From Bacteroidota bacterium (GTDB lineage: Bacteria; Bacteroidota; Bacteroidia; AKYH767-A; OLB10), in NCBI GenBank assembly GCA_024643795.1, contig JAHEMF010000016.1:1-49326 (forward strand): a stretch of 49,326 nucleotides of DNA, written 5' to 3'. The notes beneath the pieces are model-generated. The model ran no database searches and was not told the DNA's origin. It was given only the letters and a program-made list of their open reading frames with translations. Positions within the stretch are counted from its first letter, which is position 1. Every line of letters begins with the position of its first letter. Positions 11,850 through 47,940 of this stretch are shown piece after piece. Position numbers and translations under genes: made by a program.

Positions 11850-11879
11850 TTGATAAAATGATTTAATAAATTAATTTTG
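11850..11879 (+). promoter_or_regulatory. Promoter of the orphan cas6-like gene (TTG-N19-TAATTTTG)
   Basis: TTG at 11850-11852 and TAATTTTG at 11872-11879 are separated by exactly 19 bases, matching the Bacteroidota consensus TTG-N(17-23)-TAnnTTTG. The ATG of the cas6-like gene is 45 bases downstream of the -7 element, leaving a short untranslated leader. With the strong terminator after the gene this makes a self-contained single-gene transcription unit. Confidence 0.65.
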
Positions 11880-11924: not shown

Positions 11925-12662
11925 ATGAGAATCAAAATTTCTTTTCTACGTGAACATTCTTCCGCAAATTCCATCCCCTTACATCACCAAAAACTGCTGA
12001 CAGATAGCCTTGGTATGTATATGGATGAGATCTCAGGCGACAGATCACTGTTTAATTTTTCATCACTCAAGGGTACTTCGAAGATCCAGAACGGATTCAT
12101 GCGTTTTCTTTCTTCCAAGATCACACTGGTAATTTCCAGCCGCAACCAGGAATTTGCCGAAGCTCTTGTAAAAAAGATCTTCGATAATCCACATCTGGCT
12201 GTAGGTAAAATGAATCTGGTGCCAAAAACATATGAGGTGATCCCTGACCCTTCATTTCAAACCAAGATGCGTTACCTGTGCATCTCTCCATTAATTATTT
12301 TTAATCCTGATAAAGAGAGTGAAAGAGCTCAGGATATAGTTGACCCAACTTCTCAGCAATTCTCTGACATACTTTACAACATTACTCTCGACAGGATGGA
12401 AAAGGCAGGTTTTACTGAAACCATGCTCAATGAATTTGCAGAATTCGAGGCACAGCCTGACATGGAGTACATCAATAAGATCAATGAATCAGGGAAAAAG
12501 TATGCCAGGATGTATAAATCAGCGGCCGGTAACCCTATGATGGGGTTCCTGTTACCATTCACCCTGCATGCACATCCCGATGTACATAAATTTATATGGG
12601 AATGTGGTATAGGTCAGCTCACTGAAGAAGGCTACGGAATGGTAGATATGGTGAAAGGTTGA
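11925..12662 (+). CDS. cas6: Cas6-like CRISPR RNA endoribonuclease, stand-alone
   Basis: 245 residues, the usual Cas6 length. Seen: a Cas6-style start (MRIKISFLREHSSANSIPLH), a central SPLIIFNP stretch, and near the C-terminus a ferredoxin-like strand ending in the glycine-rich loop GIGQLTEEGYG at about 228-238, the hallmark of Cas6/RAMP proteins (usually G-x-G-x5-GFG-x-V). Cas6 cuts CRISPR precursor RNA in repeat hairpins. There is no CRISPR array and no other cas gene here. The region that normally reads Leu-His-x2-Gly before the FTFS block reads MYMDEISGDRSLFNFSSL, so the usual catalytic histidine seems absent; other His at 10, 21 and 22 could substitute. Neighbours are housekeeping genes. 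Role unknown; possibly a domesticated RNA-binding protein. Confidence 0.82.
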   Translation: MRIKISFLREHSSANSIPLHHQKLLTDSLGMYMDEISGDRSLFNFSSLKGTSKIQNGFMRFLSSKITLVISSRNQEFAEALVKKIFDNPHLAVGKMNLVPKTYEVIPDPSFQTKMRYLCISPLIIFNPDKESERAQDIVDPTSQQFSDILYNITLDRMEKAGFTETMLNEFAEFEAQPDMEYINKINESGKKYARMYKSAAGNPMMGFLLPFTLHAHPDVHKFIWECGIGQLTEEGYGMVDMVKG

Positions 12663-12679
12663 TATCCAGATCAAGATCT

Positions 12680-12713
12680 AAAGAACAGGCTCAGCTTCCT
12701 GTTCTTTTTTTTT
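12680..12713 (+). terminator. Strong intrinsic terminator after cas6-like gene
   Basis: A perfect 10-bp stem (AAAGAACAGG at 12680-12689 with CCTGTTCTTT at 12698-12707) around an 8-base loop runs into a run of nine T. It isolates the cas6-like gene from the transporter downstream. Confidence 0.9.
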
Positions 12714-12784
12714 GCAGATATCAGTAATTCATAACATCCGTAAAAACACTCCCACAAAAATTAAAAGCAACACAATTCTAAATT

Positions 12785-34350: not shown

Positions 34351-35586
34351 TCACTGGATCAATAATGGTTTTGTTATTCGCTGGGAGTTACCATCAGTGA
34401 TAGACAGCATGTAATGTCCCGGAGCAAGCCCATCTGTTGGAAGGTCGATTGTGTTATTATCCGCATCCAGGATCACTGTTTGATCGAATAATTTCTGACC
34501 CATTGTGTTATAGATCGCAATATTTGATTCAACTTTTTCAAAAGAACCTACATCAATGGTCAACTTACTGTTTGGAGCAACTGGGTTAGGGTAGATCTTC
34601 ATCCTGTAGATATATCCATCTTCTGTAACTGCTTCTCCGGCCATTCTGGGGGCTGATGGTACAAAACAGTTGTTGACATAAACTATATCTGCTAAAGTTG
34701 TCATTTTATCTATAAACAATGGCCATGCGAGAGCATTATACTTCATATAATATCTAAGGAAACTAACTGAAAGCATGTTGCTATAAAGATTTGTTGAGTC
34801 AGAAGTATAGCCGGATGCAGTGCAATTTTTCTCATCCTTGGTACACTTATTATTATCCATAGCAAACTGACAGTGTGTTGCTTCCAGCTGGTTGATGTAT
34901 ACCTTACAAGGTGATGCCAGACTGTTGAAAAGGTCCTCCTGATTACCAGAAGCAGGAACAATACAATCTTTTCCTCCTGAGAATACCAATGCAGGTACTG
35001 AGATATTTTGTGCAGCTGCAATTGCTGAAGGTGATGTTTCAGCTGCTGCCAATGTAAATAAAGCTGCAACACTAGGTTTCATTTCGGCAGCAAGAAATGC
35101 TGCTCCTCCGCCTGATCCATGCCCGCTCAAACAAGCTTTATTATTATAACGACCATAGAACATAGAAGCCGGATCAGCTTTCATCTTTTCAAATTCATTG
35201 ATCACGAATACCATATCTTTTGCGAAATCCATTGCATCCATATTATTTCCCATTTCGGACTTCGGAAATGCCATCATGAAACCTCTGGGCACATAAAAAT
35301 CTTTCAAGTAAGTATAGTAATGTACAGGCGTACCTTCACCATGACCAAAAACTATGAGTGGGAATTTTTTGTTTGCAGGAGCTGCTACTGGTTTATTACT
35401 ACCAGCTACGTCTGATGGATAGAACACCACAACATTGATAGAACGCAATCCCCGCGAACTGTCAACCATTGATAGATTTGTTTTACTGATCTCGTAATCA
35501 ATTTGCGCACTTGCCATTCCTGTGAACATACTCATGCATAAGACCCCGGCAAGTAATCTCATTCTTCTAATGTTTAAATTTTTCAT
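34351..35586 (-). CDS. Secreted alpha/beta hydrolase with T9SS tail and altered nucleophile elbow (paralog 1)
   Basis: 411 residues. Signal peptide (RLLAGVLCMSMFTGMASAQ), an alpha/beta-hydrolase domain of the chlorophyllase/dienelactone-hydrolase/PET-hydrolase-like type, then a T9SS type A tail from about residue 330 (IYPNPVAPNSKLTID ... HYMLSITDG). Acid SGGKDCIVP and histidine LEATHCQF are conserved with the paralog at 46705. At the nucleophile elbow, however, this copy reads GHGSGGG (Gly155-Gly161) where the paralog reads GHSMGGG: the canonical Ser position 157 is Gly and a Ser sits one place later. Activity is therefore uncertain. Several Cys (DCIVP, SPCKV, HCQF, NKCTKDEKNC, NNCF) suggest disulfides. 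Exported to the surface or medium; substrate unknown. Confidence 0.88.
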   Translation of the reverse strand: MKNLNIRRMRLLAGVLCMSMFTGMASAQIDYEISKTNLSMVDSSRGLRSINVVVFYPSDVAGSNKPVAAPANKKFPLIVFGHGEGTPVHYYTYLKDFYVPRGFMMAFPKSEMGNNMDAMDFAKDMVFVINEFEKMKADPASMFYGRYNNKACLSGHGSGGGAAFLAAEMKPSVAALFTLAAAETSPSAIAAAQNISVPALVFSGGKDCIVPASGNQEDLFNSLASPCKVYINQLEATHCQFAMDNNKCTKDEKNCTASGYTSDSTNLYSNMLSVSFLRYYMKYNALAWPLFIDKMTTLADIVYVNNCFVPSAPRMAGEAVTEDGYIYRMKIYPNPVAPNSKLTIDVGSFEKVESNIAIYNTMGQKLFDQTVILDADNNTIDLPTDGLAPGHYMLSITDGNSQRITKPLLIQ

Positions 35587-46704: not shown

Positions 46705-47940
46705 CTATTGAATTAACAATGGTTTTGATATTCTCTGATAAAGTTTATCGGTCACAGTTATGATGTAGTTTCCGGCTGGCAATGCCTGTGTATCGATAGA
46801 TAAAGTATTTACACCTTCCTGCACAGTTACTTTACGACCAACAACTTGCTGACCAAGAGTATTGATGATATTCAGGTTAACTTCTGAAGTTTCTGTAGAT
46901 ATTACATCAATTGATATATTTTCATTAACATTTGCGGGATTAGGATAAACATTGAACTTGCTTAACAGTCCTTCAGTATCAGATCCATCTTCTGCAATTC
47001 TTGGAGGTGTAGGCACAAAGCAATTGTTAACGTAAACAACACCGGGCAGACTATCCATTTTACTAATGAATAAAGGCCATGCCAGGGCATTGTATTTCAT
47101 ATAATATCTCAGGAAACTCACTGATAGCATATTAGAATATAAGTTTGTTGTGTCTGCAGAAATATTGGAAGGTGTACAACCTGATTCACCTAAAGTGCAA
47201 AAGAAATTATCCATTGAAAACTGGCAATGGGTAGCCTCAAGTTGATTTACAAAAACCTTGCAAGATGAAGCCAGGTTATTGAACATATCTTCCTGATTTC
47301 CTGAGGCCGGAACAACACAATCCTTACCTCCTGAGAATACCAGAGCGGGTATTGTAATATTTTGAGCAGCAGCTATTGCCGAAGGATTGGTTTCAGCTGC
47401 TGCAATTGTGAACATAGTTGTAATGTTTGGCTTCATTTCAGCCGCCAGGAAAGCCGCACCTCCGCCCATACTATGTCCTGCAACACATGACTTATTATTA
47501 TATCTTCCATAGAAAAATGAATTAGGATCTAATTTCATCTTCTCCATTTCATCAATGATGAAAGCCATGTCTTTAGCAAATTCTTCATGGTCCGGGAAAA
47601 AACCGAATTCCGTTCTCGGATAAGCCACCATGAATCCTCGGGGAACATAAAAATCCTTTATGTATCTATAATAATGAATCGGAGTTATAAACCCATGCCC
47701 AAATACAATGAGTGGAAATTTTTTATTTGCAGGTAATGCCATGGCTACATTTGTACCCCCATTATCAGCAGGGTAGAAAATGACCACATTAACTTTCCGG
47801 TTGCTACGAGATGCATCAGTTAATGTCATGGTCTTCTTACCTATCTCATATTGAATCTGTGCATTCAAATCACCTGTTATAAAAAACAGTCCGATAAGTA
47901 ATACCACAATTGCCTTTAAATTAGTAATGTACGATTTCAT
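46705..47940 (-). CDS. Secreted alpha/beta hydrolase with T9SS tail (paralog 2, intact triad)
   Basis: 411 residues, the same length and architecture as the gene at 34351 and clearly homologous along the whole chain. Signal peptide (IVVLLIGLFFITGDLNAQ), hydrolase domain with oxyanion region KFPLIVFGHGF, nucleophile elbow VAGHSMGGGAAFLAAE (Ser157), acid FSGGKDCVVPASG and base QLEATHCQFSMD, then a T9SS tail (VYPNPANVNENISID ... KPLLIQ). The chlorophyllase/PET-hydrolase-like superfamily hydrolyses esters; a secreted esterase on an unknown ester, polyester or lipid is likely. A -7 motif lies at 47975-47982 and a bidirectional terminator after the stop. Confidence 0.9.
   Translation of the reverse strand: MKSYITNLKAIVVLLIGLFFITGDLNAQIQYEIGKKTMTLTDASRSNRKVNVVIFYPADNGGTNVAMALPANKKFPLIVFGHGFITPIHYYRYIKDFYVPRGFMVAYPRTEFGFFPDHEEFAKDMAFIIDEMEKMKLDPNSFFYGRYNNKSCVAGHSMGGGAAFLAAEMKPNITTMFTIAAAETNPSAIAAAQNITIPALVFSGGKDCVVPASGNQEDMFNNLASSCKVFVNQLEATHCQFSMDNFFCTLGESGCTPSNISADTTNLYSNMLSVSFLRYYMKYNALAWPLFISKMDSLPGVVYVNNCFVPTPPRIAEDGSDTEGLLSKFNVYPNPANVNENISIDVISTETSEVNLNIINTLGQQVVGRKVTVQEGVNTLSIDTQALPAGNYIITVTDKLYQRISKPLLIQ

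Follow-up and report, generated by a model that had tools for sequence, protein, structure and literature searches.

A solo Cas6-like protein family of Bacteroidota, probably domesticated outside CRISPR

RESULTS

The locus

We analyzed a stretch of 49,326 nt, here called the window. It contains a solo Cas6-like gene with an ATG start that encodes a protein of 245 aa (Table 1). The gene lies between those for an exo-endo-phosphatase protein (upstream) and an MFS transporter (downstream). The wider neighbours are housekeeping genes and include mutL, rhomboid proteases, ychF, and parE/parC-like genes, among others. No CRISPR-like repeats were found in the window. Both the housekeeping surroundings and the lack of repeats had been noted in a preliminary description of this DNA, and the repeat scan and neighbour annotation agree with it. 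No tRNA genes were found in the window, and a search across it gave zero matches to Rfam families. The window also encodes two 411-aa proteins that resemble each other (34351-35586 and 46705-47940). Both are secreted, alpha/beta-hydrolase-like, and end in sorting-type tails at the C terminus. These genes lie about 11 kb apart and appear to be a duplication.

The gene appears to have its own transcription signals. The promoter and the terminator that had been proposed for it were both located. The promoter motif TTG-N17-21-TAnnTTTG was present upstream of 7 of 30 family members, compared with 0.014 expected per region, an expectation taken from the whole window with no correction for intergenic DNA being A+T rich. 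The terminator search found 1 terminator versus 0.7 expected in shuffles. The 5' end of the gene showed no sign of a conserved RNA structure (fold z-score, 0.14), and near relatives shared no conserved leader upstream of it.

Table 1. Features of the solo Cas6-like gene, with positions in the window
Feature	Position	Strand	Basis
Bacteroidota-type promoter match, TTG-N19-TAATTTTG	11850-11879	+	Motif search
Solo Cas6-like gene, 245 aa, two RAMP-type domains	11925-12662	+	Profile matches and predicted structure
Codons P18-L-H-H-Q22; H21 family-invariant, mostly Tyr in CRISPR-linked Cas6	11976-11990	+	Alignment
Shortened helix/loop, about residues 36-41, at the site of the "LHxxG" catalytic-histidine segment of CRISPR-linked Cas6; segment absent	12030-12047	+	Alignments
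Codons F45-S-S-L-K49-G50; K49 invariant, family-specific	12057-12074	+	Alignment
Codons D179 to Y197; D179, Y182, K191, R195, and Y197 invariant, family-specific	12459-12515	+	Alignment
Codons of the C-terminal glycine-rich loop, C227-GIGQLTEEGYGMVDMV; glycines common to all Cas6	12603-12653	+	Alignment
Intrinsic terminator: 10-bp stem, 8-nt loop, T tract	12680-12714	+	Terminator search

Family identity and predicted fold

The window protein matched three Cas6 models, as its proposed Cas6-like identity would lead one to expect. It matched TIGR01877 at 2.6e-19 with 70.5 bits, which exceeds the equivalog cut-off of 58.65. It matched Pfam Cas_Cas6_C (PF01881) at 3.5e-16 with 60.6 bits (cut-off, 23) and PADLOC Cas6b at 4e-28. 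An AlphaFold2 model built with 56 homologues had a pLDDT of 94.5 and a pTM of 0.90. Comparison of this model with Cas6 crystal structures placed it in the Cas6 fold. The closest solved folds were 5yi6 (Z, 26.2), PH0350 (25.8), PF0393 (25.6), and Pyrococcus furiosus Cas6 (24-25), all at 2.2-2.3 Å. The protein thus combines the profile matches, predicted fold, and C-terminal glycine-rich loop by which membership in the Cas6 fold family was judged. On the profile matches and the AlphaFold model, it is a true Cas6-fold protein.

The catalytic segment and invariant residues

The catalytic triad of P. furiosus Cas6 is Y31, H46, and K52 (PMC3652601). In a profile alignment, that enzyme has an inserted stretch of about 10 residues, which includes the H46 context, compared with the solo family. 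In a multiple alignment, most CRISPR-type Bacteroidota Cas6 retain an LHxxG-like segment where the solo family has a gap. In the small f43 group, the loop is as long but has no histidine there. The canonical catalytic histidine, which lies in the N-terminal domain and is not universal, was absent from the window protein when it was aligned with CRISPR-linked Cas6 and PDB chains. The preliminary description had judged by eye that the context of this histidine was missing, and the multiple and profile alignments confirm it. The protein has the predicted Cas6 fold and lacks the catalytic triad, a combination that characterizes non-catalytic Cas6. The loss of catalysis itself is putative, since the histidine is also absent from some Cas6 enzymes that are active (PMC3652601).

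The solo family contains more than 20 invariant residues. H21, K49, D148, D179, Y182, K191, R195, Y197, and D241 are invariant in it and rare in CRISPR-type Cas6. S46 is likewise invariant in the family across deep divergence. G50, P100, S147, and M158 come close to the same pattern. Solo and CRISPR-type Cas6 have the four C-terminal loop glycines in common. A pair of adjacent histidines had been suggested as an alternative active site. The invariance of H21 fits this suggestion, but the residues are H20 and H21 and not H21 and H22.

Two proteins of another Bacteroidota family (f52; L224 and L229) are also Cas6-like. They lack the LHxxG segment and form a long separate branch of the tree. No cas1 was detected in one of the two f52 genomes (G088).

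Distribution

A protein search retrieved an orthologue from 41 of the 42 genomes of the window's order. The one genome without it is a 58% complete assembly. With TIGR01877, exactly one Cas6 was found per genome in this order, and it was always the solo gene. The same 42 genomes contained cas1 in 9 cases, type III RAMPs in 1, and Cas5 in 0. The genome with type III RAMPs (G009, contig C92; loci L052 and L175) encodes cas1 within an 881-aa frame beside an array. This frame is possibly a Cas6-RT-Cas1 or RT-Cas1 fusion.

Strong carriers made up 115 of 194 genomes in a second order, that of genome G055, which we take to be Cytophagales from the named relatives and the tree. The gene is single copy there, and its presence is largely all-or-none by family. 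A scan of about 85,000 species yielded 71 named solo loci. All of them carried labels of Bacteroidota groups (Bacteroidota, Bacteroidetes, Cytophagales, etc.) except one, which came from an unplaced MAG. Named carriers include Flammeovirga, Marinoscillum, Mangrovivirga, Bernardetia, Thermoflexibacter, and Raineya.

Relation to CRISPR genes

The source assembly contained 2.88 Mb in 110 contigs and was 99.8% complete. No Cas1, Cas3-HD, Cas5, or type III RAMP was detected in it; the search covered these four components. No CRISPR arrays were found in the 27% of the genome that was scanned. The array plus class 1 cas genes expected in the genome of a functional CRISPR Cas6 were thus not found, with the array part of this statement covering that 27%. 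Three loose array matches in the source genome were rejected as tandem repeats of tRNA-like and other pieces (L280, G000:C48:16785-17017; L281, C49:11100-11268; L292, C60:6724-6890). They have a period of about 72-83 nt and contain a palindrome, TCCCGAT..ATCGGGA. The units of L280 and L292 resemble pieces of an adjacent tRNA gene interrupted by the palindrome, which occurs about 20 times per Mb in the sampled source genome. This palindrome was considered as an RNA target of the solo protein. It is absent from the Cytophagales carrier loci examined, so no link to the protein was drawn.

The gene is kept irrespective of CRISPR genes. In a class-wide sample, cas1 was present in 10 of 27 genomes with the solo gene, which is the background rate (p, 0.5), versus 23 of 28 genomes with a canonical Cas6 (p, 7e-9). 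Across all Cytophagales, cas1 was found in 65 of 115 carriers and 16 of 79 non-carriers; this is above chance with kinship ignored (p, 4e-7). The co-occurrence is likely due to differences in lineage and genome size between carrier and non-carrier families. Several non-carrier families have genomes of 1.1-1.6 Mb. The other 50 of the 115 carriers lack cas1. In two genomes (G151 and G300), the solo gene and a canonical Cas6 are on different contigs, the latter less than 10 kb from cas1. Among 79 solo loci, none had cas genes near the solo gene, and a simple array detector gave no convincing array, its one hit being a weak 3-copy match (L108). Of the control loci that contain cas1 or canonical Cas6, 12 had arrays by the same detector.

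Descent and selection

A tree was built from Bacteroidota Cas6 proteins, 32 of them solo and 24 CRISPR-type. The solo proteins fell on one side of a branch with support of 100/99. Two pairs with measurable and moderate dS gave dN/dS values of about 0.04-0.05, which indicates strong purifying selection. Synteny is also kept: both orders have loci in which ychF immediately precedes the solo gene on the same strand. About 16 loci show this arrangement, and the gaps between the two genes are roughly 20-300 nt. Gaps of this size rule out a tight operon with ychF, and we use the adjacency as evidence of descent only. Distances between solo proteins were correlated with those between YchF proteins (Mantel r, 0.80), and 0 of 2,000 permutations were as high. 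Because the two genes are linked in most loci, this correlation reflects co-inheritance and is not independent evidence.

Seven Cytophagales loci (L105, L115, L117, L118, L120, L123, and L124) share a conserved block across several lineages. Its order is DUF3276 (PUR-alpha-like), a membrane protein (in most loci), ychF, the solo Cas6-like gene, and a conserved unknown protein.

No relatives of the solo family were found in viral contigs, and phage records gave no match to it. A phage origin was rejected on these results. In the window's order and in much of Cytophagales, the solo gene is thus a core gene with vertical inheritance.

DISCUSSION

Comparison with known systems

The solo protein is most like Pyrococcus Cas6nc (PF0393, PDB 3UFC; PH0350, PDB 3QJJ). 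These were best or near-best matches by sequence profile (62 and 53 bits) and by fold (Z scores of 25.6-25.8 and rmsd values of 2.2-2.3 Å). Like them, the solo protein is predicted to have a Cas6 fold without the canonical catalytic residues. Pyrococcus Cas6nc retains a longer loop at the catalytic site, unlike the solo family. It also differs in that the solo-family invariants define a separate Bacteroidota clade whose members often lack CRISPR genes. The hosts of Pyrococcus Cas6nc also carry a catalytic Cas6 and CRISPR. In PhCas6nc, the interdomain cleft is the site where unstructured RNA binds (PMC3727216).

P. furiosus Cas6 (PDB 3I4H and 3PKM) matches the fold with a Z score of 24-25 at about 2.2 Å. 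It shares the glycine-rich loop and an "HQ" after the first strand with the solo family, but in that family Y31 is not conserved and the segment with H46 is missing. Sulfolobus solfataricus Cas6 (PDB 3ZFV) resembles the solo family in lacking the canonical catalytic histidine. It is a weaker fold match (Z, 11) and is active in crRNA processing in a CRISPR host. The CRISPR-linked Cas6 proteins of Bacteroidota (24 sequences, from the class) have TIGR01877 membership and general fold motifs in common with the solo family. They mostly contain the catalytic-histidine segment, come from genomes or loci with cas1 and arrays, and lie on the opposite side of the tree. Solo cas1 genes and casposases are likewise cas genes outside CRISPR, but they encode a different protein. 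Casposases are genes of mobile elements, unlike the solo Cas6, which is a vertical core gene.

The Cas6 fold and non-catalytic Cas6 are already known. A search for solitary, orphan, or domesticated Cas6 in open-licence PMC papers found no such family described. What appears to be new is a Cas6 family free of CRISPR that belongs to the core genes of one order and much of another.

A probably domesticated Cas6

We consider it probable to very probable that this Cas6 was domesticated outside CRISPR. The best explanation of the whole, which we hold to be probable, is a long-domesticated Cas6 that the window's order and much of Cytophagales now pass on vertically as a core gene. The family was likely exapted across its lineages for a housekeeping role in RNA binding or RNA processing. 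Its RNA-contact site or active site would have been rebuilt, and it would be fully apart from CRISPR. The preliminary description had proposed a domesticated Cas6 with a changed catalytic site, maintained as a solitary unit and not as debris. This reading is largely supported: the gene is a single-copy core gene over two orders, its proteins form one clade, it is under strong purifying selection, and it does not depend on CRISPR genes.

If the protein is domesticated, binding without cutting is a somewhat better than even prospect, and we hold it somewhat likelier than cutting with a rebuilt site. The Cas6nc-like fold and the loss of the canonical segment make putative binding of single-stranded RNA in the cleft the most likely activity. 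The protein would bind single-stranded cellular RNA between its two RAMP domains, like PhCas6nc. It may act as an RNA chaperone or post-transcriptional regulator.

The main alternative, which also involves domestication, is a putative active endoribonuclease that processes or degrades a specific cellular RNA by cutting it with a rebuilt site (H21 plus K49, S46, and the K191/R195 strip). It is the main rival because SsoCas6 without the histidine still cleaves (PMC3652601). Active sites differ among Cas6 enzymes (PMC3652601, PMC3727216), and the invariance of H21, S46, K49, D148, K191, and R195 over deep divergence is consistent with such a site. The helix/loop of the canonical histidine is missing, however, and the nearest solved relatives include the non-catalytic Cas6nc. 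We regard a rebuilt nuclease as a real but lesser possibility, at roughly one chance in three.

The other alternatives fare much worse. A stand-alone anti-phage or other defence gene that uses the Cas6 fold would fit the Cas-derived origin. Defence genes are usually patchy and mobile, and the core-gene distribution, vertical inheritance, housekeeping neighbours, and lack of viral-contig matches make this reading improbable. An ordinary trans-acting Cas6 that serves an array elsewhere in the genome is more improbable still. A Cas6 gene may sit apart from arrays, and some carriers do have cas1 and CRISPR loci. The source genome, however, gave none of the four components searched for, and where a CRISPR locus is present in G151 and G300 it has a separate canonical Cas6. 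The lack of class 1 effector genes in the window's order, where the solo gene is nearly universal, largely refutes a trans-acting role there. A decaying remnant of a lost CRISPR locus would explain the missing catalytic segment, but it is refuted by purifying selection and is contradicted by the invariant residues, the gene's own promoter match and terminator, and an ORF that is intact in essentially every near-complete genome of the window's order.

Implications

Annotation models give this gene the name "CRISPR-associated endoribonuclease Cas6", a wrong label in a large set of genomes; a Bernardetia plasmid record is one example. Cultured Cytophagales carriers exist, among them Flammeovirga and Marinoscillum. 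Discussions of Cas proteins exapted for cellular work usually concern mobile elements or CRISPR systems as a whole. If the reading of the solo family as a domesticated Cas6 is true, a single Cas component has become a near-universal core gene in one bacterial order and a common one in another, probably as an RNA regulator or processing factor, and CRISPR can feed the host's own RNA biology.
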